Positions 8,157-24,560 of a stretch of 64,000 nucleotides of DNA are shown here, piece by piece. The position numbers and the translations under genes are program-made. The notes beneath the pieces are model-generated. The model was not told where the DNA came from and made no database searches. It saw only the letters and a program-made list of their open reading frames with translations. Source of the DNA: Archangium violaceum (GTDB lineage Bacteria; Myxococcota; Myxococcia; Myxococcales; Myxococcaceae); contig NZ_CP069338.1 in assembly GCF_016859125.1 (NCBI RefSeq), positions 3,064,501 to 3,128,500 on the forward strand. The letters are read 5' to 3'. Positions within the stretch are counted from its first letter, which is position 1. Every line of letters begins with the position of its first letter.

Positions 8157-11100
8157 TCATTTGAAACCCGGAACCAGAAGGGTCGCCCATCGCTCCGGGC
8201 GTTTGATTCCGCCAGCCGTCAGCAGCGTGTCGGCCCGGAGTTTGAGCGCCCTGCCCTCCTCACCGCCCAGCAGCTCGCCCTTGCACCAGAGAGCACATGC
8301 CGCATGGGTGGGCATGTTGGCCGACTGGTAACCGTTGATGGCCACCGACAGGTGGGCCAGGGCCTGCTCGTGCTGCCCTCGCACCCGGGCCAGACCCGCC
8401 CGGAGCAGCTGCTCCAGGAAGGGAGCATCCCTCCGCATCTCGCGGCCGACCCGGGCAGCGTCCTGCTCGGCCGTCTCGAGCAGCTTCGCGCGCCGGCTCG
8501 AGTCCTCCCGCACCAGGGCCAGCGCGATCTGCGCCCGCAGCGCATACAGCTCCATGCGCGCGTTCTGCGCCCGGAAGATCTGCCCCGAGACGAGGGCGGG
8601 CCAGCTCTTCTCCAGGCGGGCCCAGGCGTCCGCGGGCCGTCCCTGGTAGAGGTCCGCCTGGGCATGGCGCTGGAAGTCGAAGTTCTTCTGGACGAGACCG
8701 CTCTGGGTCCAGCTCGCCATGGTCTCCCGCAGCAGCGCCCGGGCCTCCTCCGGCTCGTCCCGGGCGAGCAGGCAGTACGCGGTCGAGAACGAGGCGGTGA
8801 CCCGGGAGAACAGATCGCCCACCTCGGTGGCCCACCGGAACCACTCGGAAGCGCGCCGCTCCAATCCCTGGATGTCGCAGGTGGCCTGCAGCACCAGGGT
8901 GTAGAGGGTATGCCCCACGTTGAGCTCCCAGATGACGTCCGTCCCGTGCCGCTGGAGCAGCGTCATCCCACCATCCACCTGTGCGAGCGCGGTGCTCCAG
9001 TCACCCAGGACGAACGAGCGCGCGGCACGGTAGGTCTCGGCAAAGCCAATCAACGCGGGCTCCTTCAGCCGCTGGGCAAGCTCCCAGCCCCGCTCGAGGT
9101 AGCGGGTGCCCTTCTCCAGCGTCTGGGGCGTCCCCTGCCAGATCAGGATGGGACCGAAGGCGATCAACGCGCGGGCGACCCGGGACGGCTCCCCCGCTTC
9201 CAATGCCAGCCTCAAGCTCTGCAGCTGGTAGCTGCCCGCCCGCATCCACTCCACGCTCGCCAGCGATTTACCGAGCGCCCAACCCATGTCCACCTGGACG
9301 AGCATCCCGGGCGGAGCTGGCGTCCTCCGCGCCTTCGGCTCCAGACGGCTCATCTGGAGGCGGAGCATCTGATAGAGCAGGTTGGAGAAGGCTCCGACGT
9401 TGGTCCGGGGATAGGACAGGCCCACCTGGGAGAGCAGTGGCCGAACCAGGCCCAGCCCCTCGTCGATACGGCCGCTCAGCATCAGGCTCTCGATGGCCCG
9501 GCGCTGGAGCCCCAACCCCTCTTCCGGAGGGCTCTCGCGAGCCACCTCGAGGAACAGCGGCCCCGCCTCGGCGCCCCTGCCGGCATTCGCGAGGGCCTCG
9601 GCCCGGCGCGTCTTGAGCACCCTGGGACGCGGGAGCTCCGCGTCGGAGGCACCGCCCCCCCATTGGAGCGCGGACCCGAAGAGCTCCGCGGCACGGTGGA
9701 AGGCCAGGGCCTTGTAGGCGCGCTCGGCCGCGTGGACGGCATGGACCGCCGCCCTGCGCAGCTCACCCGCTCCGTGAAAGTGCTCGGCCAACAGCTCGTG
9801 CTCCGGCTCGGGCCGGGTCTCCAGCACCTCGGCGAGCCGACGGTGGCGTCCGGCGAGCGCGCTGGCCTCGAGTCCCTCCACCACGTACTCGCGGATTCGA
9901 TCATGGGAGACCTCCAGGCGGGTGTGCTCCCCCCTGCGGACCCGCAACAGACTCCGAGCGCGCAGCAGGACGAGCGAGGAGAGCGCGGCCTCTCCCTCCC
10001 GGGCCGCTTCGAGCACCAGGGTCTCGTCGGTGGGCCGCCCAGCCACGGCCACCAGTTCCAGCAGGTACCGCGCGCTCTCCGGGAGCTGGTGGATCCGCCT
10101 TCCGAGCACATCCCGGAGGGAGCTCCCCTCCCTGGACGCCGCGGGCGCCTCCTCGGTGACCTGCTCGGGCTCGAGGGAGAGCTCCTCGATGAAGAAGGGA
10201 TTGCCCTCGGCTTCGCGGACGATGCGCTCGGCGCGGAGCCGGGCCTCGGGCGAGGAGGAGCCCAGCCGGAACAGCGCGAGCCGCAGGGCCTCCTCCGCCG
10301 GGAGCGGTTGGAGCACGAGCTCGCGCCGGGGAGCCAGCGCGGGCGAGTGCGCCAGCAGTTGCTCCAGCTCGCGGAGGAAGGGGCTGACCTCCGCCTCCCC
10401 GGTGCGGTAGCTCGCCACGAGGAGCAGGTGCGGCACGTCTGGAGGCGAGAGCAACTCGGCCAGCAGGCGTGCGCTGTCCGCGTCGCCCCACTGGAGGTCA
10501 TCGAAGCAGAGCACCACGGGTCCCCGCCGGGCCAGGCTCGCGAGCAGCTTCTTGAGGACGGCCACCATCTGATGGCGCATCTGGAGCGAATCGAGCGGCT
10601 CGGCGGGTGCCGGAGCGTCCGGAGCGAGCTGCGCGAGCACCCGGAATACGGGGAAGAAGGCCGTGAGCTCCTGGACCTGGGCGGGGATGGGCTCTCGCGC
10701 CTCGTTGTCGGGCAGCTGCAGGAGGTAGCGCATGAGCGCATCCAGCAGGCTGTCCAGGGTCTTGTAGGGGACCGACTCGCGCTCGTAGCAGCGCCCCATC
10801 AGCGTGATGGCACCACGCGCGTAGGCGGAGTCCAGGAAGGTCCGCAGCAGGGTGCTCTTCCCCAGGCCGGGACCGCCGCTGAGGTACACCGTCTCGACCC
10901 GCCCCTCCCTGCTCCGCTCGAAGGCCTCCTCCAGCACCTGGAGCTCCGCCTCGCGACCCACGAGCGAGCGCCCCTGACCCGTCAGCACCTGACGGCTCTT
11001 CCCGTGGCTCCCGCTCCCCTCCGGGGCCAGGCAGGAGAGGATCTCCTCGTGCTTGGGGCGGTCCTCCGGCATGGGGCTCATCATGCGCATGCAGAGAGCC

Positions 11101-12071
11101 TCGAGCTCCGGCGGCAGGCCGTACGTGAGCCGCGAAGGCGGCACCGCCCCCCTCTTCTGATCCTGGAGGCGCTGGGCCGGAGGACCCACGAAGGGGCGCT
11201 GCCCGGTGAGGGCCTCATAGAGCATCACCCCCACGCTGAACCAATCGCTCGCCTCGGTGGCGGCCTCGCCCATCCACTGCTCCGGTGCCATGTAGCAGGG
11301 CGTGCCGGCCAACTCCTCGGGAGTCGCGTCCATGGGCGCGGGCGCGAACTCGCGGGCGAGCCCGAAGTCGAGCAGCACCACCCGGCCGGTGCTGGTGACG
11401 AGGACGTTGGAAGGCTTGAGATCGCGGTGGACGATGCCCGCCGCGTGCAGGGCCCGGACGCCCTGGGCCAGGAGGAAGAAAGCGGAGCGCAGGCGCCGCG
11501 GGTCCACGGAGAAGACGGGGCGAGCGGGCTCTGGGGCACCGGGCGCGGGAGCGGCGGAGAGCGGCGCGGGCGGTGCCGCGCGTGCCGACGTCTCCGATGG
11601 GAACACCAGGGTCGTCTCTTCGACGTGGCTCGTCCACGGGGCCCTGGGCTCGAGCGTCTCGGTGGGCGCCTGCGACAAGATGGGGTTGAAGGAACCCGAG
11701 GTGGCGGAGCGCTCGCGGACGTAGGCGATGAAGTTGCTCCCCGCCACATACTCCATGGTGAAGAACCACCGGTCACCTTCCGAGTGCAGCTCGTAGAGCG
11801 TCACCAGGTTGGGGTGGACGATGTCCGTGAGGAGCCGGAACTCCTGCTTGAAGCGGTAGAGCGCGCTCGGCCGGGAGTCATGGAGGAGCTTGAGTGCCAC
11901 CACCATGTTGTAGTGACGGTCGAAAACCTCGTAGACGGAGCCGAAGGCTCCCTGACCGATGAGCCGGCGGACCTCGAACCGCGCGGTCCCCTCGAATCCC
12001 TTCTGAGACAGAATCCGCACGTGCCCCGCCTTTCCCCCGGCGAACCGGACAGGACCCATGGAGGAGGACAC
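8157..12071 (-). CDS. Ser/Thr kinase-AAA ATPase-TPR giant regulator (PknK-like)
   Basis: 1304 residues from GTG at 12071 (ATG at 12059 is an alternative; neither has a strong ribosome site). The kinase domain, about residues 30-330, has GQGAFG, Lys61 in VALK, HRDLKPSN at 215 and DFG at 235, so it should be active. A Pro/Ala-rich insert of about 65 residues (122-188) sits between hinge and catalytic loop. Next comes a STAND-like ATPase (GREAEL, Walker A GGPGLGKST, Walker B VVLCFDDLQWGD), then about 550 residues of helical TPR-like repeats. This architecture is common in myxobacteria. It precedes the LigA/IPT gene by 56 bases. Confidence 0.92.
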   Translation of the reverse strand: MSSSMGPVRFAGGKAGHVRILSQKGFEGTARFEVRRLIGQGAFGSVYEVFDRHYNMVVALKLLHDSRPSALYRFKQEFRLLTDIVHPNLVTLYELHSEGDRWFFTMEYVAGSNFIAYVRERSATSGSFNPILSQAPTETLEPRAPWTSHVEETTLVFPSETSARAAPPAPLSAAPAPGAPEPARPVFSVDPRRLRSAFFLLAQGVRALHAAGIVHRDLKPSNVLVTSTGRVVLLDFGLAREFAPAPMDATPEELAGTPCYMAPEQWMGEAATEASDWFSVGVMLYEALTGQRPFVGPPAQRLQDQKRGAVPPSRLTYGLPPELEALCMRMMSPMPEDRPKHEEILSCLAPEGSGSHGKSRQVLTGQGRSLVGREAELQVLEEAFERSREGRVETVYLSGGPGLGKSTLLRTFLDSAYARGAITLMGRCYERESVPYKTLDSLLDALMRYLLQLPDNEAREPIPAQVQELTAFFPVFRVLAQLAPDAPAPAEPLDSLQMRHQMVAVLKKLLASLARRGPVVLCFDDLQWGDADSARLLAELLSPPDVPHLLLVASYRTGEAEVSPFLRELEQLLAHSPALAPRRELVLQPLPAEEALRLALFRLGSSSPEARLRAERIVREAEGNPFFIEELSLEPEQVTEEAPAASREGSSLRDVLGRRIHQLPESARYLLELVAVAGRPTDETLVLEAAREGEAALSSLVLLRARSLLRVRRGEHTRLEVSHDRIREYVVEGLEASALAGRHRRLAEVLETRPEPEHELLAEHFHGAGELRRAAVHAVHAAERAYKALAFHRAAELFGSALQWGGGASDAELPRPRVLKTRRAEALANAGRGAEAGPLFLEVARESPPEEGLGLQRRAIESLMLSGRIDEGLGLVRPLLSQVGLSYPRTNVGAFSNLLYQMLRLQMSRLEPKARRTPAPPGMLVQVDMGWALGKSLASVEWMRAGSYQLQSLRLALEAGEPSRVARALIAFGPILIWQGTPQTLEKGTRYLERGWELAQRLKEPALIGFAETYRAARSFVLGDWSTALAQVDGGMTLLQRHGTDVIWELNVGHTLYTLVLQATCDIQGLERRASEWFRWATEVGDLFSRVTASFSTAYCLLARDEPEEARALLRETMASWTQSGLVQKNFDFQRHAQADLYQGRPADAWARLEKSWPALVSGQIFRAQNARMELYALRAQIALALVREDSSRRAKLLETAEQDAARVGREMRRDAPFLEQLLRAGLARVRGQHEQALAHLSVAINGYQSANMPTHAACALWCKGELLGGEEGRALKLRADTLLTAGGIKRPERWATLLVPGFK

Positions 12072-12158
12072 CGAGGCCCGCCTCGAGGATGCGTTGATGG
12101 ACAGGAATTATCCACCGCGCGATTCCGCTTGTGAAGGAGGCGCGGGTGGGCCCTCCAG

Positions 12159-13499
12159 CTACTCCTGCTCCTTCTCGTCCTTCTGGAGCAGGGACTGGCA
12201 GGGGACCTCCGGCCGGGGATACGCATTGAACGGGAGGAACCAGACACCATCGAACCCATGCAGGTTGGCCCTGCCATGGCAGGCCATGCACGAGGACCTC
12301 GAGTCCTGGAACCAGGTCTCGGCCGCCACGTTGGCCGTGTTCGTCTGCGGCTGCGGCTGGCGCGCATTGGGGAAGCTGTCCGTCCCGTCGTGGGTCGGCC
12401 ACTGCGTCATCACGAGTTGGTAGTTCTCCCAGACGGTGCCCTTGACGCCTGGGGCGGCGTGATAGTCCTCGTTGGTACGCTGGGTCGAGCTGGCGATCGG
12501 CCGCATGCGCACCACCTGCGTCGGCTCCGGGTCCCGCCGCGGCGGATTACACCGATCGATCGGCCTGCCCATGGGAGAAGGCGGCGTCGTCGGATCGCCG
12601 TTGTTGAGCGCGTACGGCGCGCGCCCCTGGCTCTTCTCACCCGGGATGGCCGGAACGTTATCGACGTGTTCGAAGGTGGCCCAGATCCAGTTCGGGAAGC
12701 CCACGACCTTGTTGACGATGTGCAGGCCGATCAGACCGACGGGGGTTGGGGTGCACCTGCCGGACACCGGGTCGAGCACGTTGGCCTGGGTGACGTAGTA
12801 GCGGCTCCATTGCTCGGGAGGCACCCCCGTCATGATGCGCCACGAGGCCTTGACCCCGATCGAACCAAACGGGAACTCCAGGGGGTTGTCCGTGCCGCCA
12901 TGCAGGTTCTCCGCCAGATACAGCGGGCCCGGGTACCGCGAGGGAGGATTGATGATGAAGTTGTACTGCGTGTTGTTGACCCGGAACTCGTAACGGACGT
13001 ACTGGCGGTTCTGGCTCACCAGCGGACCGGCCTGACGTTTGAGGCCGGCCTGGTTGAACCCGTGGAACCTGTCGAAGGAGGCCAGGTATTTCGTGTAGGG
13101 CGCCAGCCGCTCGTTGGGATCGCATGGCGAGAGTGTGTCGAAGCTGTTCCAGGTGGCCGGAGCCGCACCCCCGGGGAGGAACAACTCGTAGTCCGCCTTC
13201 CATGTCTCCCAGACCCCCGGCACGGACACGTCACCATAACGCTTCCCGTTGTCGGCGAGGCCCCGGTATCTGCCCTTCTGTGCCGGCCAGGTGAGCGCGA
13301 TGAACTCCCGCCACGCGAAGTCATCGAAATACGGCAGGTTCTTCTCGGGGTCGGAGAACGGCGGGGTGATGCTGACGGGGACGACCGCCGACACCTGGGG
13401 CGACGGGCGAGCGGCCGGGGCCTGGGCGCTCGCGACGGGAAGCCAGGCGAGGAGAACTCCCATGAACAGTCGGGTGACGAAGGTGTATCGACTCAGCAT
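12159..13499 (-). CDS. Exported protein with one CxxCH haem motif
   Basis: 446 residues from the ATG at 13499, which opens a signal peptide ending VASAQA; a longer frame to 13592 has an unlikely N-terminus. The mature protein is rich in Trp, Pro and Tyr (WREFIALTWPAQKGRY, ENYQLVMTQWP) and carries a single CMACH motif near the C-terminus for covalent c-type haem. Such proteins are annotated only as 'cytochrome c family' in relatives I recall. It is periplasmic by inference; partner enzyme unknown. No other cytochrome genes are adjacent. Confidence 0.75.
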   Translation of the reverse strand: MLSRYTFVTRLFMGVLLAWLPVASAQAPAARPSPQVSAVVPVSITPPFSDPEKNLPYFDDFAWREFIALTWPAQKGRYRGLADNGKRYGDVSVPGVWETWKADYELFLPGGAAPATWNSFDTLSPCDPNERLAPYTKYLASFDRFHGFNQAGLKRQAGPLVSQNRQYVRYEFRVNNTQYNFIINPPSRYPGPLYLAENLHGGTDNPLEFPFGSIGVKASWRIMTGVPPEQWSRYYVTQANVLDPVSGRCTPTPVGLIGLHIVNKVVGFPNWIWATFEHVDNVPAIPGEKSQGRAPYALNNGDPTTPPSPMGRPIDRCNPPRRDPEPTQVVRMRPIASSTQRTNEDYHAAPGVKGTVWENYQLVMTQWPTHDGTDSFPNARQPQPQTNTANVAAETWFQDSRSSCMACHGRANLHGFDGVWFLPFNAYPRPEVPCQSLLQKDEKEQE

Positions 13500-13659
13500 C
13501 GGATGCGATCCCCCTGGTGCTCGACTGAAACCACGTGGACGGGCCCCGCGAGGTGCCCGGATGGGGGCAGGTTGCAGCAGCCTCCGGGGCATCCACCATG
13601 AAGAGGTTCACCCGTTTGGAGTGAATTGCCTCACACCCCGCGGCTCCAGGGGGTGGCGC

Positions 13660-14916
13660 TCAGCGCTGGTAGATCTTCACCCAGTCCACGTACATCTTCA
13701 CCGGAGCGCCCATGGTGGTGCGGAAGGCGTCGAGCTGGATGCACAGATGGTGTGCCACGTCCGGGATGGCATTGACGTCCGTGAGCGTCCAGACCAGGGC
13801 CCCGTCGCGGAAGATGCGCAGGGCCTCCGGCTCCCACTCCATCGCGACGGTATGCCATTGGGTCGCGTCCACGGCGTGTCTGTAATGGTACTGGCGGTTG
13901 TCCGCGCCGTAGTGGATGAACGTGCTGAAGCTGGCGCGGCTCGTGCCGGTGCCCGTCTCGTAGATGTCGTTCTCCCCATCCGAGGGCCAGTTCCCGCTCT
14001 GGGGCCACGTGAGCACCACGCCACTGGTCGTGCCGCTGGGGTCCGGCTCGGTGCGGACGCGGAACTCGAAGCGGCCGTACTTGTAGTTCGACTTGTGCGA
14101 CATGCCGCCCGACACGAGCGTGCCATCGACCATCTGCGCGGTGACTGTCAGCAGGCCATTGGCGACGCTGAACGCGCTCGGACGGCGCAAGCCATTGCCG
14201 CCATGCCCGGGCGAGTAGTACATGCTCCACTGGGTGGTATCGACCGCGCTCCCCAGGAAGTCATCCTGGAAGACGAGCCGCCAGCCCGGGGGCGTGCCAG
14301 GCGCCGTGACGCGGATGTCATCCGCGTAGAGGGCGTCACCCGACACGCTGTTCGTCTGGAGGATGTAGAAGGACAGCTTCCGGTCCGTCTGCTCGAGCGT
14401 GGCCGAGACGGTGACCTTCTGGAAGGTCTGCGTCAGTGTCGCCCTCTGCTCCCACACACGGACGACACCGCTGGCATCCGTCTCCCGGAGCGCGAGGATC
14501 ACCGTCTTGCCCACCGCGCTCGTGCTCGCGGCGGCGACGTAGGCGCTCGCCGTGTATGTGCCCAACGCAGCGGGAGCCGCCACCACGCTCGACGCGGCCT
14601 CGAGCGAATACCCTCCGCTCGTCCCGGCCACGGGCGTGACCTTCACCACGTAGCCGCCCTCGGGCGCGTCCGAGGAACGGAGGATCCGCGACAGGCTTGC
14701 CTGCCACGTCTTCCAGCCCTGGAGGTCCTGCTCGAAGCCGCCGTTGGCGAGCAGGTTGTCCGTCGCCGCGGCCGTGCTCGCTCGGGTCTCCTCCGGCGCG
14801 AGCGCCCGGACCTCCGGCTCGGGCCCACAGCCCATCCCCAACAGCCCGCTCAGGCCCACCACGCAGGCCAGCCGCACGCACCGCCCACGTCCTCGTCCCA
14901 CGAGACTTCGCATCAT
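13660..14916 (-). CDS. GH16 glycoside hydrolase lipoprotein with CBM-like domain
   Basis: 418 residues from ATG at 14916, six bases after GGAGGG. The signal ends LLGMGC, a good lipobox. Residues about 45-190 look like a carbohydrate-binding beta-sandwich (LLANGGFEQDLQGWKTW start, IRVTAPG end). The catalytic domain has the GH16 signature E-x-D-x-x-E as ENDIYETG, preceded by GVVLTWPQSGNWPSDG, and ends MYVDWVKIYQ. GH16 enzymes cleave beta-1,3 or beta-1,4 glucans and galactans; the exact substrate is unknown. The gene stands alone, 160 bases downstream of the haem protein. Confidence 0.92.
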   Translation of the reverse strand: MMRSLVGRGRGRCVRLACVVGLSGLLGMGCGPEPEVRALAPEETRASTAAATDNLLANGGFEQDLQGWKTWQASLSRILRSSDAPEGGYVVKVTPVAGTSGGYSLEAASSVVAAPAALGTYTASAYVAAASTSAVGKTVILALRETDASGVVRVWEQRATLTQTFQKVTVSATLEQTDRKLSFYILQTNSVSGDALYADDIRVTAPGTPPGWRLVFQDDFLGSAVDTTQWSMYYSPGHGGNGLRRPSAFSVANGLLTVTAQMVDGTLVSGGMSHKSNYKYGRFEFRVRTEPDPSGTTSGVVLTWPQSGNWPSDGENDIYETGTGTSRASFSTFIHYGADNRQYHYRHAVDATQWHTVAMEWEPEALRIFRDGALVWTLTDVNAIPDVAHHLCIQLDAFRTTMGAPVKMYVDWVKIYQR

Positions 14917-15085
14917 CTGAAACCCTCCATCCTCGAAAAGGTCTACAGGGAAGAGGGGGACTCCCGCCCCGCATCTCAAAAAAGCCATGCAGCTCGACTT
15001 CGCGCTCGACGCCTTCCACCCAACTCCGACAAGGGCTCCGCGGCGACGGCGAACGGCTTCCCCACGCTCGCATGCCAGACGCGTA

Positions 15086-15129
15086 GGCGCCCCGGCCCCG
15101 CCTCCGCTCACTCACGGGGCCGGGGCGCC
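15086..15129 (-). terminator. 15-bp perfect inverted repeat after the GST remnant
   Basis: GGCGCCCCGGCCCCG at 15086-15100 pairs exactly with 15115-15129, leaving a 14-base loop. It begins 10 bases after the stop of the leftward GST remnant and points to a terminator. No U run follows. It may serve both the truncated gene and the tRNA array upstream. Confidence 0.7.
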
Positions 15130-15139
15130 GGGGTAGGCG

Positions 15140-15655
15140 TCAGTCCTCCGTCCGCGGCTGTGGAAAGAGACCTCTATAGGGCCGAGCCTCCTCCACGGCG
15201 CGGGCGAAGGACGGCCGGTTCAGCAGGCGGTCCAGATAGGCCCTGACGTGCGAGTGCGCCTGGGTGATGGGCACGACCCAATCGGCGTAGAACAAGGCGG
15301 GGCCCGCGGCACAGTCCGCCAGGGTGAACGCCTCGCCAATGGCCCAGGTCCGGTTCGCCATCTGTCGATCGAGCAGGCCATAGGCGGTGAGCAACGAAGC
15401 CCTGGCCACCTCCACACCGTGTGGATCTCCGCGCCCTTTGGGGCGGATCCGGTCGGTGACGATCTTCTGCATCGGCTCGGCGATCTGGAGATCGAAGAAG
15501 CGATCCCACAGGCGCGCTTCGAGGGCCTGGTCGAATTCTCCGGGAATCAGCGGCGTCGCGCCCGGGTGATGGCGATCCAGGTATTCGATGATGATGCTGG
15601 ACTCGGGAAGGGTCCGGTTCGCGGCGCGGTCCACCAGGACCGGCATCCGTCCCAC
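15140..15655 (-). pseudogene. Glutathione S-transferase lacking its N-terminus
   Basis: The reading frame starts inside the thioredoxin-like domain at VGRMPVLVD, continues PESSIIIEYLD, the normal glutathione-contacting Glu-Ser pair, and then has a complete helical C-terminal domain (NRTWAIGEAFTLADCAAGPALFYADWV, NRPSFARAVEEARPY). Normal GSTs have about 45-55 more residues before this point, carrying the catalytic Ser/Tyr/Cys. An in-frame stop lies at 15683-15685 and the tRNA array begins at 15717, so the first exon-length of the gene is gone. I call it a remnant; a GTG at 15655 could still start translation of a 171-residue product. Confidence 0.75.
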
Positions 15656-15716
15656 CGGGCAGTGGCCGTCGAGGGTTGGGCGTCATCGGCCGTTTCTCTC
15701 ACGACCCCACGCGAAG

Positions 15717-15789
15717 TGCACGCCCTGGGGATCGAACCCAGCGAAATCGGTGTGTGGAACCGACGCCGTCTCCAGCTGGCTCGGCGTGC
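15717..15789 (-). tRNA. tRNA-Val-like (anticodon CAC), atypical
   Basis: 73 nt cloverleaf: acceptor GCACGCC/GGCGTGC, T arm CTGGG-TTCGATC-CCCAG, anticodon stem TCGGT/ACCGA with loop TCCACAC, discriminator A73 as in Val tRNAs. Position 8 is G instead of U and position 33 is C instead of the near-universal U33. No CCA encoded. First (3'-most) gene of the array. Confidence 0.65.
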
Positions 15790-15797
15790 ATGAGAAG

Positions 15798-15868
15798 TCG
15801 CGGAGCAGGGAGTTGAACCCTGTGGCGCAGGCGTATGAGACCCGGTGGGGCACCGGCCCCTCTCCGCG
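15798..15868 (-). tRNA. tRNA-Met (anticodon CAT), short D arm
   Basis: 71 nt. Acceptor CGCGGAG/CTCCGCG is fully paired including C1-G72. Anticodon stem CGGGT/GCCTG has two G-U pairs and loop CTCATAC with U33. T arm CAGGG-TTCAACT-CCCTG. Discriminator A73 fits Met. The D region is reduced to a GGGC/GCCC stem with a loop of about 4-6 nt. It is neither a classic initiator (no C1-A72 mismatch) nor clearly the Ile2 type. Confidence 0.75.
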
Positions 15869-15877
15869 TTGAACGAG

Positions 15878-15951
15878 TGCCTCTGGCAGGAATTGAACCT
15901 GCGGCCTCACGGTTCGGAGCCGTGCGCTCTCATCCACTGAGCTACAGAGGC
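15878..15951 (-). tRNA. tRNA-Arg (anticodon CCG)
   Basis: 74 nt, canonical in every arm: acceptor GCCTCTG/CAGAGGC, D arm TAGCTCAGTGGATGAGAGC, anticodon loop CTCCGAA, T arm GCAGG-TTCAATT-CCTGC, discriminator A73. Reads CGG. No CCA encoded. Confidence 0.93.
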
Positions 15952-15963
15952 AAGAAGAAGAAG

Positions 15964-16037
15964 TGGTTCCGGCAGGACTCGAACCTGCGACCCCACGGTT
16001 CGCAACCGTGTGCTCTCATCCGCTGAGCTACGGAACC
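15964..16037 (-). tRNA. tRNA-Arg (anticodon GCG)
   Basis: 74 nt, canonical fold: acceptor GGTTCCG/CGGAACC, D arm TAGCTCAGCGGATGAGAGC, anticodon stem CACGG/CCGTG with loop TTGCGAA, T arm GCAGG-TTCGAGT-CCTGC, discriminator A73. Bacteria normally read CGC with an A34 (inosine) tRNA-Arg ACG, so a GCG anticodon is unusual. Closely similar to the adjacent CCG gene, suggesting local duplication. Confidence 0.92.
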
Positions 16038-16047
16038 AGAAAACAGA

Positions 16048-16119
16048 AGCTGCCGGCGGGACTCGAACCCGCATCGTCCTGAGTGGCGCTCAGGTGCCTC
16101 ACCTCTCGGCCACGGCAGC
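16048..16119 (-). tRNA. tRNA-Gly-like (anticodon GCC), atypical loop
   Basis: 72 nt. Acceptor GCTGCCG/CGGCAGC, D stem GCC/GGC, anticodon stem CCTGA/TCAGG with loop GCGCCAC, T arm GCGGG-TTCGAGT-CCCGC, discriminator U73, which is the Gly identity base. Position 33 is C rather than U. The variable loop is short, so despite a Leu/Ser-like D arm (GGCCGAGAGG) it is not a class II tRNA. Confidence 0.7.
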
Positions 16120-16142
16120 AACACGACCTTCGGTACTGCGAG

Positions 16143-16215
16143 AGCCCCTGGTCGGGTTCGAACCGACGGCCTCCGGTTTACGAAACCGGCGCTCCTCCAG
16201 CTGAGCTACAAGGGC
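16143..16215 (-). tRNA. tRNA-Thr (anticodon CGT)
   Basis: 73 nt. Acceptor GCCCTTG/CAGGGGC (one G-U), D arm TAGCTCAGCTGGAGGAGC, anticodon stem CCGGT/ACCGG with loop TTCGTAA, T arm GTCGG-TTCGAAC-CCGAC, discriminator U73. Reads ACG. No CCA encoded. Only four bases separate its 5' end from the 3' end of the Trp gene. Confidence 0.9.
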
Positions 16216-16219
16216 ATGG

Positions 16220-16287
16220 CAGGCCGCCAAGGAGTTGAACCCTGCACGCTCGGATTTGGATTCCAAGCTGCTCCCGGAGCGCGGCCT
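16220..16287 (-). tRNA. tRNA-Trp (anticodon CCA), truncated D arm
   Basis: 68 nt only. Acceptor AGGCCGC/GCGGCCT, anticodon stem TTGGA/TCCGA with loop ATCCAAA, T arm CAGGG-TTCAACT-CCTTG, discriminator G73 as in Trp tRNAs, followed directly by CCA. The D region is 14 nt, GCTC-CGG-GAGC plus three bases, so there is no normal D loop with GG; the tertiary D-T loop contact must be altered. Confidence 0.75.
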
Positions 16288-16330
16288 ATGAACACAGACA
16301 ACAAACAACAGACGACGGGTGCGACGTGAG

Positions 16331-16400
16331 AGGCCCATGCGGGAGTCGAACCCGCCCCACGCGGTGTTGCAAACCGCTGCCGCCCCAGGCGGAACGGGCC
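16331..16400 (-). tRNA. tRNA-Cys (anticodon GCA), truncated D arm
   Basis: 70 nt. Acceptor GGCCCGT/ATGGGCC, anticodon stem GCGGT/ACCGC with loop TTGCAAC, T arm GCGGG-TTCGACT-CCCGC, discriminator U73, the key Cys identity base. The D region is CGCC-TGG-GGCG, a three-base loop. No CCA encoded. Confidence 0.8.
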
Positions 16401-16419
16401 ATGTCCTGCATGCTGCGTG

Positions 16420-16492
16420 CACCGGGAGCAGGCTTCGAACCTGCACCTGCGGGGTCAGAGCCCGCCATCCTCGCCAGTTAGACGATCCCGGT
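16420..16492 (-). tRNA. tRNA-Gln (anticodon CTG)
   Basis: 73 nt. Acceptor ACCGGGA/TCCCGGT, D arm TCGTCTAACTGGCGAGGAT as in Gln/Glu tRNAs, anticodon stem GCGGG/CCCGC with loop CTCTGAC, T arm GCAGG-TTCGAAG-CCTGC, discriminator G73 as in Gln. Reads CAG. It is the promoter-proximal gene of the array. Confidence 0.9.
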
Positions 16493-16520
16493 ATGAGTGA
16501 AGATGAAGCTCGAAAACACG

Positions 16521-16554
16521 AGAGGCCGGGTTCCCCTTCGGGAGCCCGGCCTCT
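16521..16554 (-). terminator. 10-bp hairpin just upstream of the tRNA array
   Basis: AGAGGCCGGG at 16521-16530 pairs exactly with 16545-16554; the loop can pair further (CCC/GGG). In the leftward direction it is followed by CGTGTTTTCG, a modest U tract, and then the tRNA-Gln gene starts 29 bases on. It could end transcription of the small upstream frame or be a processing signal of the array precursor. Confidence 0.55.
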
Positions 16555-16560
16555 GATCGA

Positions 16561-16587
16561 CAGCGCCTCGAGAGAGAAGAGGCGCTG
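16561..16587. other. Second strong hairpin beside the array
   Basis: CAGCGCCTC at 16561-16569 and GAGGCGCTG at 16579-16587 are exact reverse complements around a 9-base purine-rich loop. It lies seven bases from the first hairpin and just beyond the stop of the small leftward frame at 16592. Role unknown; tandem hairpins here may form a double terminator. Confidence 0.5.
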
Positions 16588-16591
16588 ACGG

Positions 16592-16744
16592 TCAGAAACC
16601 GGGTGGACGACCGCGATACTGCCAGCGCCGGGCACGGAAAACCGGAGCGGCAACCACGTGGGTGCGCGGGAGCGAATCGATGCAACCGGCAAATTTCTCA
16701 GTGTGCTTGGGGTTCATCGCGCTCTGCATCGCCACCGTCGTCAT
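16592..16744 (-). CDS. Possible 50-residue protein upstream of the tRNA array
   Basis: The ATG at 16744 follows AAAGGAGCGGTGACC, an excellent ribosome site at normal spacing. The product begins MTTVAMQSAMNPKHTEKFAG, is basic and His/Arg-rich toward its end, and matches no family I know. It reads toward the two hairpins and the tRNA array. The case for it is the ribosome site; codon bias over so short a stretch says little. Confidence 0.35.
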   Translation of the reverse strand: MTTVAMQSAMNPKHTEKFAGCIDSLPRTHVVAAPVFRARRWQYRGRPPGF

Positions 16745-16898
16745 GGTCACCGCTCCTTTCATCGAGAAAAGACGCGGCCGGAAATGTGTCCTGACACGCC
16801 ACGCGGATCTTCCTTCGACGCTTGGGGACAAGCAGGCACGCGAGCCCTCACTCCTCATGGACAAGCGCCACCGGCACTCCAGGACGCATCACCCCCGC

Positions 16899-17869
16899 TC
16901 ATGCGACGTCCCGGGAACGATGGTCCCGGGCCTTCTCCGCGTTCTGCCGCTTCTTGAGCAGGGTGACGAAGTCGTCGCTCACCGAGTGATCGTGCGTCGC
17001 CGCAGCATGCTCCACCAGCATATCGCGCAGGGTCTGGGCCTGCTCCGGCTCCAGCAACAACGCGAGCAGCAGGTAGACGCCCCGGAAGCGTGGATCCTTC
17101 AGGTGCTTGACTGCTCGCCGGTTGTCCTTCCCCAGGAAGGTCTGGGCAATGAAGAACTCATGAATCTTGCCGTGGCGGAAGCGCCACTCGCACTGCTCCT
17201 CACCGTCGGGAGTCTTCCACTTCAGACACACCACCATCTTGGCGGCTTCCATCCGCTGCAACTCCCGGCGAAACTTCTTCTCCGAGAGGGCGCTCCTCGA
17301 AGGTCCTCGTCCTCCAGGAGCCTGGCGACGAGAGGCGCCTGCGCTCCGGCCTCCGACCCCATCGCCCCCAGCGCCTCCAGTGCCGCCCAACAGATGTCCT
17401 TGTCGTCGCTCCGCAAGAGGTTGGCAACGGTTGGCGCCAGCGCGCTGGCCGCATCCCCCATCTCCCGCAGTGCCTCCAACGACTCCAGACAGACGTACTG
17501 GTTTCGTGAACAGTCGACGAGCGAGGAAAGGTGCGCTTGCTCCAATCCCATCCCCAGCACGCTCAATGAAGAGATGGTGGCAAGCTGGATGCGCCAGTCC
17601 TTCGCATTCAACAGCTCCCGCATGCGCGGCTCTCGAGCGAATACCCCCAGCCGTTCTCGAACTCCAGGCTGTGCGAGCTCCTTTTCGCTCAACCGCAACA
17701 GCGCTCTCACGACGATCTCAGGGTCGGGATCGTCCAGAGCCGCGAGCAGTCCCCGAATCCGCGTTGGCGGCGCCTCGGCGGGACCTTCCCTGGTCGTGGC
17801 CTGTGAACTGCTCCCGAGCAGAAGGGTGAAACAACACACCCTCAGCCACATCAGAGTTCGTCGCTGCAT
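16899..17869 (-). pseudogene. HEAT-repeat protein gene broken by a frameshift
   Basis: The upstream part (17869 leftward) encodes a signal-like start (MQRRTLMWLRVCCF, ending SSQA) and HEAT-type repeats (IRGLLAALDDPDPEIVVRALLRL, LLRSDDKDICWAALEALGAMG, LVARLLEDEDLR). At about 17285-17310 the frame is lost; a second frame then carries a coherent C-terminal domain (EKKFRRELQRMEAAKMVV, WRFRHGKIHEFFIAQTFLG, DPRFRGVYLLLALLL). That C-terminal block resembles the end of NACHT/STAND-type NTPases I recall, with no NTPase domain here. A single-base indel would join the two. It is either a recent pseudogene or a sequence error. Confidence 0.7.
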
Positions 17870-17996
17870 TCAGCCCCCCCATCCCGAGGGAGGATTCTGA
17901 CCGCAGACAGTACGGACGGGAAAGGCCCCCTCCCTCGCGCACGCCAGGGGTGTTTGACAGAAATGTGACGATTGGGGAGTTGGGCTCGGAGCGCGC

Positions 17997-19277
17997 CTAC
18001 CGGTCCAGCACCATGCTGCGGATGAAGAACTTCGGGTAGCGCACGTACGTGCGCAGGTGCATGGCCGTGTCCACCATCCACGGCACCCAGTCGCCCGTGT
18101 CGATGACCGCGTCCACCGCGTGCTCCCGGTTGCGCGCGTACCACTCGCGCCAGTGCTTCACCTCGTCCGAGGACAGCCGCCCCGACAGCCCCTGCGCCCT
18201 CAAGAGCAGCTCGAAGATGCCCCGGTGGCAGTAGATGTACTGCCCCCCTCCCTTCCAGCCGAGCGTCTCCTTCGCCTCTTCGCCCAGCCGCTCCTCGTGC
18301 CCGCACGCCGCCTCGTACACGAACAGCGGCAGCGGACTCCCCCGCGCGATGTCGAAGCCCATCTGGCTGTAGAAGCGCGGGTTGAAGTCGATGAGCAGCT
18401 GCTTGCCTCCGGCCCGGATGAACTCGACCTCGAACGTGCCGTGGTAGCCCAGCTTCTTGCACAGCGCCCGCACCTTCTCCGCGAGCCCCGCGTCCACCGG
18501 CACGTCCTCGAAGCACAGGCCGATGCCCAGCTTGCGCGGACGCTGCAACACCTTCACCGCCCCGCGCGCCACGAACAGCTCGCCCGTCCGGTCCACGAAG
18601 CCGCTCAGGCTGAAGATGTTCTGCGCCGCCTCCGTGTAGAAGGCCTGCACCATCGGCCGGTTCGCCCGCGCGTCGTACTCCAACAGCTTGCGCCCGTACT
18701 TGTTGCGCTCCAGGAACTCGCGGTAGCGCGGCAACAACTCGCTCGCGCGCTCCACCTGCGCGCCCTTCACGTGGCTCTCGAACAGAATCTGCGTCCGGGG
18801 CTTGAGTAGCACCGGGAAGCGCGCCTCGGCCGCCACCTTCTCCAGGTCCGCCTCACCCTCCGGGAACCACGTGTCCGGCACGTCCAGCCCCACCTCCTTG
18901 CACTGGTCGTGGAGCGTCTTCTTGTTCAACAGCCCGTAGATGACGTCCACGTCCGGCTGGTACATGCGGAAATGCTTCGACAGCTCCTCGCGGCGCAGGG
19001 CGAACAGCCACGCCATGTCATCGCTCGTGGGGTACAGCACGTGCCCCGGCTCGGCCTCACCGAAGCGCAGCAGCCACTCCAGGAAGGCCTCCGAGTCTCC
19101 CACGTCCGGGCACTCCACCCGCCGCGTCACGTACCGGCTCCAGCGCGCGGGCGCCAGCAGCTTGGACTCGGCCATGGTGATGGGAATGCCCAGCCGACCC
19201 AGGCACCGCACCGCGGCGAGCGTGCCGTAGTAGTCGGCCATCGTCAGCAGGATGGGAGGACGCGCCTGTGTGTTCAT
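17997..19277 (-). CDS. ATP-grasp family ligase
   Basis: 426 residues. The N-terminal Rossmann-like part (ILLTMADYYGTLAAVRCLGRLG) is followed by a central and C-terminal ATP-grasp fold: FPVLLKPRTQ supplies the nucleotide Lys, GTFEVEFIRAGGKQLLIDFNPRFYSQMGFD contains the Mg-binding Glu/Asn pair. The family forms amide or related bonds with carboxylates via acylphosphates. It starts 34 bases after the acyltransferase gene and is the last gene of a three-gene leftward unit, so modification of a cell-surface glycan with an amino acid or similar group is a reasonable inference. Confidence 0.88.
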   Translation of the reverse strand: MNTQARPPILLTMADYYGTLAAVRCLGRLGIPITMAESKLLAPARWSRYVTRRVECPDVGDSEAFLEWLLRFGEAEPGHVLYPTSDDMAWLFALRREELSKHFRMYQPDVDVIYGLLNKKTLHDQCKEVGLDVPDTWFPEGEADLEKVAAEARFPVLLKPRTQILFESHVKGAQVERASELLPRYREFLERNKYGRKLLEYDARANRPMVQAFYTEAAQNIFSLSGFVDRTGELFVARGAVKVLQRPRKLGIGLCFEDVPVDAGLAEKVRALCKKLGYHGTFEVEFIRAGGKQLLIDFNPRFYSQMGFDIARGSPLPLFVYEAACGHEERLGEEAKETLGWKGGGQYIYCHRGIFELLLRAQGLSGRLSSDEVKHWREWYARNREHAVDAVIDTGDWVPWMVDTAMHLRTYVRYPKFFIRSMVLDR

Positions 19278-19310
19278 GTATCGATTCCTCGTGTCCTCAG
19301 CGCGCCAGCG

Positions 19311-20432
19311 CTAGCCCGGGTTGACCGGGGTGCTCGCCACCGGCTCGGCGGCCGGCTGCGGCTTCTTGTCGCGCCAGTCGAAGCGGTTCTTCAGCTTCAG
19401 GAAGGGCTTCTCGAAGTAGCGGTAGCTCAGCGTCGCCAGGCCGACGCTCAGGAGCATCGTCAGCACGTAGTAGAGAATCAGGTTGTGCGGCACCACCCGG
19501 CGCACGATGTTCAGCGAAATCATGTGCAGCAGGTAGATGCCGTAGGTGATGGAGCCCATGTAGCGCAGCCACTTGTGGTCCACCAGCGGCGCGAGCACGT
19601 GGTCGGGCCGGATGCACATCGCAATCACCATCGCCGTGAGCAGCAGCGAGGAAATCCACAGCGGCGTGTCGTGGTTGTAGATGGCGAAGAACACCAGCAC
19701 CACCACCACCGGCACGCTCCACACCTGCCCCAGCACCTTCCACGTCCACTCGAAGACTTTGGGGTAGTGCGTCAGGTACGCCGCCAGGCAGCCCATGCAC
19801 ACGGAGACGGAGATGCTGGCGAGGATGCGCACCCACAGCAGCCGGGTGTCGAGAAAGCCCGTCTTCGTGGCCCAGTCCATGAAGATGGCCACCGCGAGCA
19901 TGCCCGACATGAAGACCACCGGTCCCCACGTCGTCTTGAAGTAACGCACCACGAAGGGCCACATCAGGTAGAACTGCTCCTCGGTGGCCATGGACCACGC
20001 GAAGTAGAAGATGATGCGGCCCTCTTCCAGCTTGATGAACCAGTTCGACGTGTACGTGAGGTAGTACTTCAGGTTGTCGAAGAACGCGCCGCGCACCACC
20101 ATGTCCTGCTCGAAGAAGAAGACGAGCACGATGTAGAGGAACGTCACCGCGTAGTAGAGCGGGAAGATGCGCAGCGAGCGCCGGGCGTAGAAGCCCTTGA
20201 GGGAGATGGAGCCCGTCGTCTCGCGCTCGCGCAGCAGCAGCGTGGTGATGAGGAAGCCGCTGATGGCGAAGAAGAGCGAGACGCTCAGGTAGAAGCGCCC
20301 CACGAGGCCCTCTCGCGCTTCCAGCACGTGGTAGAGCACCACGGCGAGGATGGCGAGGGCTCGCAGCCCGTCCAGGGCTCCGAAGGTCTTGGTGCGAAGA
20401 AAGGCCTGATGGGCGGCTTTGGCGGATTCCAT
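19311..20432 (-). CDS. Acyltransferase family 3 membrane protein
   Basis: 373 residues with about ten hydrophobic segments. It opens FGALDGLRALAILAVVLYH, the hallmark of the OafA/OatA/ExoZ acyltransferase-3 family (conserved R/D and catalytic His after the first helix), and ends with a basic, Pro-rich cytoplasmic tail. Such enzymes O-acetylate or succinylate sugars of surface polysaccharides. It follows the WecG-like gene by 71 bases and precedes the ATP-grasp gene by 34, forming one leftward unit. Confidence 0.93.
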   Translation of the reverse strand: MESAKAAHQAFLRTKTFGALDGLRALAILAVVLYHVLEAREGLVGRFYLSVSLFFAISGFLITTLLLRERETTGSISLKGFYARRSLRIFPLYYAVTFLYIVLVFFFEQDMVVRGAFFDNLKYYLTYTSNWFIKLEEGRIIFYFAWSMATEEQFYLMWPFVVRYFKTTWGPVVFMSGMLAVAIFMDWATKTGFLDTRLLWVRILASISVSVCMGCLAAYLTHYPKVFEWTWKVLGQVWSVPVVVVLVFFAIYNHDTPLWISSLLLTAMVIAMCIRPDHVLAPLVDHKWLRYMGSITYGIYLLHMISLNIVRRVVPHNLILYYVLTMLLSVGLATLSYRYFEKPFLKLKNRFDWRDKKPQPAAEPVASTPVNPG

Positions 20433-20503
20433 GTCCGCCCATTAGGAACGCAGAATTCCCGACGACCCACAAGAGGGCCAGCCCCGGCCTCCGGGCAGAC
20501 ACG

Positions 20504-21289
20504 CTAGCGCACCGCCCGCCCGCCCGTCTGGTCCGCGCCCCCCGACATGCGGACCTCCGCCACGTGCGAGAAATAGATGGGGATGCCAAGGACGTAGCGG
20601 CTGAACAGCCGCCGGGGCTCCACCGCCAGACGGAACAGCCACTCCATCCCCACCTTGCGCATGACGAGCGGCGCCCGCGGAACCTTGCCGCCGATGTAGT
20701 CCAGGATGGCGCCCCCATTGACGATGAGCACCGGGTGCGAGAGCGCCTCGCGCAGCTGCACCGAGACCGCCTCCTGCTTGGGCATGCCCATCGCCATGAT
20801 GATGAGCTCCGGCTTCGTCCCGGTGGCCAGCCGCACGTACGTCTCCGGCGCGTCGAAGCCGTCATGGCAGGCCACGATGTCCAGCCCCCACTCCTCCAGC
20901 GTGCGCCGCGCGTTGTCCAACCACGGCGAGCGCGTGCCGAAGAGCGCCACCCGCCGCCCCTTGTACGCACGGGCGAGCTTGGGGATGAAGTCCGTGCCAT
21001 TCATGTTCAGCCCATACGGCCGGCTGAACGCTTTCATGCCCAGCTTCACCCCGATGCCGTCACGCAACAGCATGTCCGAGCGCAGCAGCCCGTCCAGCAT
21101 CCCTGGCTGATTCCACCCCAGGTTCACCGCGTGCGCGTTGACGAAGGACAGGATGAAGGGCCTCCCGGGCCGGGTGAGCTCGTCGAGCAGCGCCCGCTCC
21201 GCCGCCTCGTCGTCGATGACACGGATGCGGTCCATCAACGTCATGAAATTGCGCGACCGCTCCGACTTCGTCTCCCCCGGGGTTGCCAT
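20504..21289 (-). CDS. WecG/TagA/CpsF-family glycosyltransferase
   Basis: 261 residues from ATG at 21289, preceded by GAGGAGGACAC. Family blocks present: FVNAHAVNLG, LLRDGIGVKLGMK, the Rossmann segment RRVALFGTRSPWLDNARRTL, and IIMAMGMPKQE. These enzymes add a UDP-activated amino-sugar to a lipid-linked sugar precursor at the membrane. The C-terminus (MEWLFRLAVEPRRLFSRYVLG) is the usual basic amphipathic membrane anchor. First gene of the glycan unit with the acyltransferase and ATP-grasp genes. Confidence 0.93.
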   Translation of the reverse strand: MATPGETKSERSRNFMTLMDRIRVIDDEAAERALLDELTRPGRPFILSFVNAHAVNLGWNQPGMLDGLLRSDMLLRDGIGVKLGMKAFSRPYGLNMNGTDFIPKLARAYKGRRVALFGTRSPWLDNARRTLEEWGLDIVACHDGFDAPETYVRLATGTKPELIIMAMGMPKQEAVSVQLREALSHPVLIVNGGAILDYIGGKVPRAPLVMRKVGMEWLFRLAVEPRRLFSRYVLGIPIYFSHVAEVRMSGGADQTGGRAVR

Positions 21290-21518
21290 GTGTCCTCCTC
21301 CTCCCTGTCCGGAAGATAGCGGAAACCGGAACATCCGGGAGGGACTCGCGGAGACCCGGACGGGGGACCCCGGAATGTCCGCCGCCGACGAACCTCGCGG
21401 GCCCTCCGCTCGCTGGTGAACGCATGGGAGGGACTCCAGGACACTGGATGCCGAAGCCACTCGTGCCCCGTGCCTAGCTTCTGGCGTCCACGACGCAGCG
21501 CAGAAGGGCGGCGCCCTC

Positions 21519-22970
21519 ATGCAGGAGCTCAACTTCCTTCCGGCCCACCGGCTCGCGGCCCTGGTGCGCACCCACGAGGTGTCCGCCCGCGAACTGTTGG
21601 AGGCGCATCTGGCGCAGATCTCCCGGCACAACTCCCGCCTCAACGCCATCGTCACGCTCGACGAGGAGCGCGCCCGCGCCCGAGCCCGTGAGGCCGACGA
21701 GGCGCTCGCCCGCGGAGAGTCCTGGGGCCCCCTGCACGGGGTGCCCTTCACCATCAAGGACTCCTTCATGACGGCCGGGGTGCGCACCACCAGCAGCTAC
21801 AAGCGGCTGAGTACGTACGTGCCCACGCACGACGCCACCGTGGTGGCGCGGATGAAGCAGGCGGGAGCCATCCTCCTCGGCAAGACGAACCTGCCCACGC
21901 TCACGCTGGACTTGCAGACGAGTGGCCACCTCTTCGGCCGGGCCAGCAACCCCTGGGACGAGTCGCGCACCCCCGGAGGCAGCACCGGCGGAGGCGCCGC
22001 GGCGGTGGCCTCGGGGATGACGCCCCTCGAGGTGGGCAGCGACCTGGCCGGCTCCATCCGCGTCCCCTCCCACTACTGTGGCATCTTCGGCTTCAAGCCC
22101 ACCGAGCACCGCGTCCCCATCTCCGGTCACATCCCCCCGCTCCCCGGCCGCCCCCGCGGGGTGCGTTACGAGGGCGCCGCCGGGCCGCTCGCGCGCTGCG
22201 TGGAGGACTTGAAGCTGGGATTGAAGCTGCTCGCGGGCCCGGATGACGAGGACTGGGACGTGCCTCCCGTGCCCCTCCGCGACGTCCCGCCTCGCGAGCT
22301 GCGCTCCTACCGCGTCGCCTGGACGGATGACTTCGGCGGCCTGCCCGTGACGCGCGAGACGCGCACCGCCATGGACAAGCTGGCGCGCACCCTGGAAGCG
22401 CAGGGCTGCCACGTGGAGCGCCGTGGGCCCAGGGGGCTGGACCTCGAGGAGGCATGGGAGGTGTGGGGCCGCGTGCTCGGCGCGGAGCTCGGCTCGGAGA
22501 TGCAGGCCGTGGCGCGCTTCATCTTCAGCATCCGCTTCAACGCCATGCCCGGCGACGCCATCCTCAACCGCGGCATCGTGCGCGGCGTGCGGGGCAGCAT
22601 GTCCGATTACGCCGAGGCGCTCGCCATCCACGACCGCATCACCGGGCAGGTGGAGGCCTTCCTGTCCGAGTGGGACGCCTGGCTGTGTCCCGTCACCGTG
22701 AGCCAGGCCTTCACCCACCGGCGCAGCGGCGAGTGGATCAACGTGGAGGGCAAACAGGTGCCCTACATCACCGCCACCTGTGGCTTCACCACCCTGTTCA
22801 ACCTCACCGGCCACCCCGTGGTCGTGGTGCCCCTCCCGAAGCTGGCGGACTCACCCCTACCGCTGGGCGTCCAGCTCGTCGGCCGGCGGTGGCGCGACGA
22901 GGAGCTGCTCGCCTTCTCCGAGTCCCTCGTGGAGCTCACGGGCGACTTCCGCAAGCCGCCCGGGTACTGA
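21519..22970 (+). CDS. Amidase signature enzyme
   Basis: 483 residues. The amidase-signature triad is complete: Lys in GVPFTIKDSF, cis-Ser in TPGGSTGGGAAA and nucleophile Ser in SDLAGSIRVP. The overall layout (RLAALVRTHEVSARELLEAHL at the N-terminus, FGFKPTEHRVP after the nucleophile) is that of GatA-like amidases, but there are no gatB or gatC neighbours, so it is a stand-alone amide hydrolase of unknown substrate. The start ATG at 21519 lies at the beginning of the conserved region. Confidence 0.92.
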   Translation: MQELNFLPAHRLAALVRTHEVSARELLEAHLAQISRHNSRLNAIVTLDEERARARAREADEALARGESWGPLHGVPFTIKDSFMTAGVRTTSSYKRLSTYVPTHDATVVARMKQAGAILLGKTNLPTLTLDLQTSGHLFGRASNPWDESRTPGGSTGGGAAAVASGMTPLEVGSDLAGSIRVPSHYCGIFGFKPTEHRVPISGHIPPLPGRPRGVRYEGAAGPLARCVEDLKLGLKLLAGPDDEDWDVPPVPLRDVPPRELRSYRVAWTDDFGGLPVTRETRTAMDKLARTLEAQGCHVERRGPRGLDLEEAWEVWGRVLGAELGSEMQAVARFIFSIRFNAMPGDAILNRGIVRGVRGSMSDYAEALAIHDRITGQVEAFLSEWDAWLCPVTVSQAFTHRRSGEWINVEGKQVPYITATCGFTTLFNLTGHPVVVVPLPKLADSPLPLGVQLVGRRWRDEELLAFSESLVELTGDFRKPPGY

Positions 22971-22977
22971 CGGCGCC

Positions 22978-24438: not shown

Positions 24439-24560
24439 GTCGGAGCTCCGGGGAGAGAGGGCTGCGCGAACTCTCGTCCCGCGGGCGCCTCCTCGCAAGC
24501 ACCTCGGTGGGTTGACGCCCCGTCCGGCCCGCCTGCTTCCCCGGGTTCCACTCCGGCTAC

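Follow-up and report, generated by a model that had tools for sequence, protein, structure and literature searches.

What purpose do nine tRNA genes of mixed specificity serve when they stand side by side on a myxobacterial chromosome, and how might their expression be controlled? Such an array occupies positions 15716-16492, minus strand, of a stretch of 64,000 nucleotides (nt) from Archangium violaceum, here called the window, which corresponds to positions 3064501-3128500 of a genome assembled as a single contig of 12.68 Mb (NZ_CP069338.1). The original prediction for this DNA described the array as a set of tRNAs that may supplement or replace host tRNAs when these are cut. It was silent on the segment directly upstream (16508-16795), which holds a promoter-like element, a leader open reading frame (ORF) and an attenuator-like RNA. 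The comparisons of leaders, arrays and genomes presented here indicate that the locus is probably a spare tRNA operon under ribosome-mediated transcription attenuation.

Leader anatomy and codon content

The upstream segment, like the array on the minus strand, begins with the pattern GTCAGG-N16-CGTC followed by TTTTC (16766-16795, genome 3081266-3081295), a promoter-like element which we take to be of the extracytoplasmic function (ECF) type. No housekeeping promoter was found by a sigma-70 scan. A Shine-Dalgarno (SD) motif with start codon, GAAAGGAGCGGTGACCATG, follows at 16742-16760 (genome 3081242-3081260) and opens a leader ORF of 50 codons, MTTVAMQSAMNPKHTEKFAGCIDSLPRTHVVAAPVFRARRWQYRGRPPGF, at 16592-16744. 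The SD-ATG motif was present at 90 sites in 46 of 145 genomes of the order, and its reversed control at none. At 86 of the 88 sites that were fetched, those of this genome included, a leader ORF of 22-62 codons was followed by tRNAs; the two exceptions were an over-long reading frame with no detected tRNA, which the RNA model introduced below nevertheless matches (L278), and an unrelated long ORF (L290). Leader-bearing arrays share a common head composed of GTCAGG-N15/16-CGTC, SD and ATG, a small ORF, a hairpin termed P1, a GC-rich hairpin and a T-rich stretch, after which the tRNAs begin. GTCAGG is located 35-36 nt upstream of the SD in 84 of the 86 leaders, and CGTC 21-22 nt past the start of GTCAGG in 81.

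The promoter pattern matched five times in the A. violaceum genome (reversed control 0), four times at four leader-bearing arrays and once before a core tRNA-Pro(TGG) gene. An inspection of 68 tRNA genes, some of them array genes, for the pattern in their own genome yielded three cases. GTCAGG-CGTC precedes two core tRNA genes by 57 and 53 nt (L030, Pro TGG; L302, Ala GGC) and one more by 104 nt (L011, Val-TAC). The element may be common to some core tRNAs.

Leader codons track the tRNAs of their own array at the level of both amino acids and synonymous codons. Codons read by own-array tRNAs made up 0.351 of the leaders, compared with 0.234 (standard deviation 0.0085) after permutation of the arrays among the 86 leaders, and none of 5000 permutations reached the observed value. 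The result was the same when arrays were permuted only within the 22 genomes that have more than one of them (65 arrays; 0.361 vs 0.236, 0/5000). In this within-genome set, 18 of the 20 amino acids were more frequent in leaders followed by an array with a cognate tRNA. Tyrosine accounted for 3.5% of leader residues with the cognate tRNA present and 0.3% with it absent, cysteine for 3.4 and 0.5%, tryptophan for 3.6 and 0.7%, and histidine for 5.2 and 1.2%. The choice among synonymous codons matched the own array at 0.664 vs 0.578 in permuted arrays (0/3000); TTG supplied 10 of 36 leucine codons in front of arrays with Leu-CAA as their sole Leu tRNA, and 4 of 129 in front of arrays that lack Leu tRNAs.

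Relatedness among leaders was addressed in two ways. With one leader taken per similarity cluster (18 clusters), no permutation reached the observed match in 200 draws of 500 permutations each. When similar leaders that precede different arrays were matched in 34 pairs, no leader being used twice, 20 pairs differed toward the own array, 1 away from it and 13 neutrally, with 149 changes toward and 41 away. Leaders of Corallococcus, for instance, read DSM(E/D)LAIASF in front of Met arrays and DSLDLAIASF in front of Pro/Leu arrays. In the Myxococcus-group genomes examined, of 9.0-9.5 Mb, Asp/Arg arrays are preceded by leaders rich in R and D.

The share of synonymous changes among single-base codon differences was.419 in the reading frame, compared with.216 and.250 in the other two frames. 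By this measure the leader ORF is under coding constraint, and it is presumably translated. The constraint, together with leader starts that are alike within groups, would also suit a functional small peptide that happens to use the array tRNAs, the latter being made by partial read-through. This explanation is highly improbable: the peptides differ by array type and follow the tRNA content, as in Corallococcus, and a CCCG motif persists at the end of the ORF although its reading phase changes (CCC GGT vs TAC CCG).

Pairing potential of the leader RNA and a proposed switch

The last 12 nt of the window's leader ORF, stop codon included, constitute segment m (CCCGGTTTCTGA, 16592-16603), which pairing analysis singled out as the proposed antiterminator strand. 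It is followed by the intermediate hairpin P1 predicted by folding (AGCGCCTC-loop-GAGGCGCT, 16562-16586), by segment c' (TCAGAGGCCGGG, 16545-16556), and by a terminator-like hairpin c:d (GAGGCCGGG-loop-CCCGGCCTC, 16522-16553) that lies within the match of the RNA model. An imperfect T-rich tail, TCGTGTTTTCGAGC, at 16508-16521 completes the leader. According to duplex energies and folds, c' pairs with m or, through its last 9 nt, with d. Segment m resembles d, the 3' arm of the terminator-like hairpin, and is able to take its place opposite the 5' arm c.

The GAGGCCGGG/CCCGGCCTC stem or a near variant of it was found in 80 of the 86 leaders. In nascent RNA ending before d, at least 8 m:c pairs were predicted in 67 of these 80 leaders, with a mean of 8.7. 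The mean for codon-shuffled leaders was 3.9; the shuffled mean was at least 8 in none of the 80, and 75 leaders lay above their own shuffled mean. In the nascent-RNA fold of the window leader, m, P1 and c' form one long hairpin. The energy of the m:c' duplex averaged -17.9 with a leader's own c' and -17.0 with the c' of other leaders (0/5000), as calculated for 73 leaders after 13 had been dropped by the pattern.

A covariance model of the 3' leader (R1), built from 49 leaders, gave matches at E <=0.001 in 70 of 142 genomes and 15 of 46 genera of the order, several of these genomes having only weak matches (E near 1e-4). At the level of the phylum 68 of 195 genomes were matched, including a single weak match outside the order (G162, E 2.8e-4). 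Four of the six matches in the A. violaceum genome are array leaders, and the match in the window covers 16510-16612. All of 20 picked matches without the exact SD motif precede tRNAs and contain a leader ORF with an SD, and 16 of them also have the promoter pattern. Leaders from two further genomes, L081 (family f2) and L085, combine unrelated peptides with a similar terminator-like hairpin (R1 E 1.4e-5 and 3.9e-4), in L081 along with the promoter element. No Rfam family was matched in the leader, and a T-box or other known RNA was rejected there; a T-box was not matched in 14900-17900 at E up to 1. Three 22-codon leaders from the same genus (L086, L238, L240) end in WRRYRRLF or WRRSRRLF before Tyr/Trp, Arg or Trp tRNAs and lack a c/d hairpin, which suggests a simpler or decayed variant.

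Acting as an attenuator, the leader would operate as follows. The transcript would start at the ECF-like promoter and carry the 50-codon ORF. With fast decoding of all its codons, the ribosome would arrive at the stop codon and cover m, c would pair with d, and transcription would stop before the tRNAs. With a scarce tRNA among those needed by the leader, the ribosome would stall upstream, m would pair with c around P1 before d is made, and the polymerase would enter the array. Each array would answer to a shortage of the tRNAs that it supplies, since its leader favours the codons which those tRNAs read. The enrichment is strongest in the middle of the ORF (1.65, compared with 1.26 and 1.35 at the ends) and peaks upstream of the pairing segment, as attenuation requires.

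A number of observations weigh against this mechanism. Six of the 86 leaders have no recognisable c/d hairpin, and in 5 of the 80 others m:c pairing is below the shuffled mean. When the last 36 nt of the ORF are letter-shuffled as a control, the real ends exceed the shuffles in m:c energy only modestly (mean z -0.83 for 84 leaders, of which 36% lie below -1), partly because the ORFs end GC-rich. With c nearly constant, m and c show little covariation (paired 0.745 vs 0.725 permuted, 1/2000), too faint a signal to serve as the main proof. The T-tract is short, interrupted and separated by some nt from the stem, and terminator-like sites in the region do not exceed those in shuffled sequences (2 found, shuffle mean 1.6). 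The full-length folds printed have c:d paired even with m free, so that the switch would have to be kinetic. As to codon content, Asn and Thr codons show no enrichment with the cognate tRNA, and several of the 34 leader pairs repeat one contrast and are not fully independent, five of them opposing Ala/Gly/Leu/Pro to Arg arrays in the Myxococcus group. To sense 20 or more tRNAs evenly is beyond a single 50-codon leader. Finally, the array at 1523.6 kb of this genome (L070) has the promoter element directly before its tRNAs and no leader.

Redundancy, structure and setting of the array tRNAs

ARAGORN called eight tRNAs on the minus strand between 15716 and 16492, and none elsewhere in the window. 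They are, by coordinate, Val (CAC, 15716-15789, with C33 and G8), Met (CAT, 15797-15868, with a short D-loop and A8), Arg (CCG, 15877-15951), Arg (GCG, 15963-16037), Gly (GCC, 16048-16119, with C33), Thr (CGT, 16142-16215), Cys (GCA, 16330-16400, with a 5-nt D-loop) and Gln (CTG, 16419-16492). The ninth gene, Trp (CCA, about 16217-16287), escaped ARAGORN here and was recognised by folding as a cloverleaf with a 3-nt D-loop (-33.6 kcal/mol); in relatives, seven array Trp genes were called by the program. The Rfam gathering score for tRNA was reached by Gln, Thr, Gly and both Arg tRNAs, that is by five of the nine, with Val, Met, Trp and Cys below it. The nine-gene array that had been read from the letters alone is real, and every one of its anticodons fits a codon with G or C in third position, as was also noticed at the time; Gly GCC and Cys GCA read the U-ending partner as well.

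Segments of a query made of array and leader were found again beside other tRNAs of this genome, including the first 51 bases of the query at 94% identity. ARAGORN delineated four sister arrays, at about 278.7 kb (Tyr, Lys, Asn, Pro, Phe, Leu-CAA), 919 kb (Gly-CCC, Ala-TGC), 1523.6 kb (Val-GAC, Ala-CGC) and 1584.4 kb (Glu, Leu-GAG, Leu-CAG). With the window array they amount to 22 tRNAs, each anticodon occurring once. Rfam tRNA matches in the genome numbered 72, and the fetched non-array tRNA genes comprised 47 distinct sequences covering all 20 amino acids, which makes the arrays redundant. The supplementary nature ascribed to the window array was borne out, in that the amino acids of all nine genes and eight of the nine anticodons are also represented on non-array genes. 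Arg-GCG is the only window-array anticodon without a non-array copy in this genome. The core set uses ACG in its place, and the array tRNA (15963-16037) would not need deamination of A34.

Array tRNA counts reached 19-27 in some relatives. In some, most of the set lies within 5 kb (26 tRNA genes in G018, 25 in G023 and 19 in G014); in others it is split. Within the same genus, L083, L084 and L241 display two arrays of Glu/Asp/Gly/Leu type about 2-5 kb apart, each with its own leader, in a duplication-like arrangement.

The array tRNAs deviate from the core set in sequence and structure. Eighteen of those in this genome share 55-77% identity with the core tRNA of the same anticodon. Among 589 array tRNAs, U33 is missing from 34 of 35 Gly-GCC, 16 of 16 Leu-GAG, 33 of 34 Asp-GTC and 12 of 15 Val-CAC; the three U33-less array tRNAs printed for this genome carry C33, and all 47 core tRNAs carry U33. 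The variable loop is 5-6 nt long in all 73 array Leu tRNAs, which are therefore of class-I type, whereas that of core Leu tRNAs is long. D-loops are reduced to 4 nt in 7 of 7 Trp, 5 nt in 12 of 12 Cys and 5-6 nt in 33 of 34 Asp tRNAs of the arrays. Compensatory changes were counted at 77 of 566 stem pairs in 27 kinds of array tRNA; only these counts are evidence, as fully paired stems hold by construction, one ARAGORN structure having been chosen per kind.

These features bear on two alternatives. If the genes were degenerate and functionless, four of the nine falling under the Rfam gathering score would be no surprise; the recurrence of the same odd features in several genera, with compensatory stem changes, leaves this explanation with next to no probability. 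Four kinds without U33, class-I Leu tRNAs and tiny D-loops could also point to a role outside elongation, in tRNA-dependent peptide or envelope synthesis, or to decoys. Such a role is improbable, given that most amino acids are covered, that stem changes are compensatory and that the leaders tie the set to decoding; moreover, no obvious dedicated enzyme is encoded among the ten flanking proteins. The array tRNAs look neither decayed nor ordinary, and perhaps their odd features serve escape from tRNA-cleaving toxins.

Eight of the ten flanking proteins (8157-24498) matched Pfam families, namely protein kinase, glycosyl hydrolase, GST, HEAT protein, acyltransferase, WecG, amidase and M28 peptidase, and two had no match. 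No family of phages or other mobile elements was among them, in keeping with the original prediction, which had seen no phage gene nearby. Its suggested link to phages or plasmids is so far not supported, neither by these families nor at the DNA level, where the best matches in phages and plasmids covered <=18% of the array query; an origin from either is not favoured. The gene at 17997-19277 is present in five of five congeners, in which similarity ends at its edge (17989-17997), and ARAGORN found no tRNA in the 13-16 kb stretches fetched at this gene from all five. With non-array copies in the genome and no array at the same place in congeners, the array is neither an ordinary core locus nor the only source of these tRNAs. 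Arrays seem to change place while their heads stay. Between the array and this gene, the minus strand carries a pair of ORFs that overlap in different frames (16899-17869); they encode an N-terminal HEAT-repeat protein and, as judged by eye, a C-terminal piece like the end of a NACHT-type protein; the pair looks like a frameshifted gene.

The absence of the array in the congeners, the partial matches to phage and plasmid tRNA clusters, the weak T-tract and the one array with a promoter and no leader would all agree with an anti-defence tRNA set of a mobile element that has been kept, its leader and hairpins being relics or a plain promoter-proximal terminator and its expression set only by the ECF-like promoter. 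We regard this as unlikely. Relics would not keep a reading frame, a match in synonymous codons and an ORF end that pairs with the terminator arm, and the flanking proteins include no phage family.

The replacement of cut tRNAs by the array, as originally proposed, is plausible. The ultimate purpose could be to replace tRNAs lost to tRNA-cleaving toxins or defence nucleases, a guess which we put forward tentatively and which builds on the redundancy of the arrays, on their divergence in those tRNA parts that tRNases contact, and on a lifestyle with tRNase weapons. Slightly more tentative is a wider proposal, that Myxococcaceae possess a shadow translation set of divergent tRNAs for most amino acids, whose changes in the anticodon loop, D-arm and variable arm would make them resistant to tRNA-cleaving toxins and defence nucleases, and which might be freed piecemeal by attenuators reading, one codon after another, which ordinary tRNAs have been destroyed.

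Related systems and biological meaning

Ribosome-mediated attenuation is known for the amino-acid operons trp, his, leu, thr and ilv. The present locus resembles them in its short leader ORF rich in relevant codons, its predicted alternative hairpins, one of them terminator-like, and the ribosome position as the presumed switch. It differs in the multi-specificity tRNAs behind the attenuator, in a proposed antiterminator strand made of the ORF's final 12 nt with the stop codon among them, and in the ECF-like promoter. T-box riboswitches exert tRNA-responsive control of terminators, whereas sensing in the present case would proceed via translation of the ORF.

A tRNA array unit consists of about 20 or more densely packed tRNA genes; the window array has 9, and its flanks lack mobile-element families. 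Two reports describe such units in mycobacteria, their phages and plasmids as dense multi-specificity clusters with altered D, anticodon and variable arms and a suspected anti-defence role, features of density and arm change that the array shares (PMC5966550, PMC12803027). The words leader and promoter are absent from the text of the latter (PMC12803027). The trn operon of Anabaena PCC 7120 is plasmid-borne, comprises 26 genes and is controlled by the repressor TrcR; it is redundant and normally silent, is induced by translational stress, and its expression favours survival (PMC10272220). Both systems place a redundant tRNA array beside housekeeping tRNAs; Anabaena has one operon, whereas the myxobacterial arrays are several, lie on the chromosome and as a rule follow codon-matched leaders of their own. 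Mutations in the anticodon loop of phage tRNAs have been proposed to evade tRNases; there the terms U33 and position 33 do not appear (PMC10264068). These phage tRNAs are likewise spare copies altered in the anticodon loop, while the array tRNAs are chromosomal and common to several genera of one bacterial family. Expressed in E. coli, SitA3 of Myxococcus xanthus is reported to cleave tRNA-Ala(UGC) (PMC5562445). Ala-TGC, the anticodon type targeted by SitA3, sits in one of the five arrays of this genome.

Among the papers listed in a literature search that covered few subscription papers, none, as judged by title and the opening of the abstract, reports leader-peptide or attenuation control of tRNA genes or myxobacterial tRNA arrays.

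Attenuation is known for the control of enzymes and transporters. In the arrays described here, the gene product seems to be itself the tRNA that is sensed as scarce, and no feedback loop on decoding could be shorter. The leader model is widespread in the order, if weakly matched in some genomes, and this is a group that fights with tRNase toxins. The 86 pairs of leader and array constitute a natural data set on how control codons follow tRNA content, and it becomes directly testable why redundant, odd tRNA arrays are retained on chromosomes. If the shadow set tentatively proposed for the Myxococcaceae is real, it would represent a response that senses the loss of tRNAs by translation and repairs it with resistant copies.
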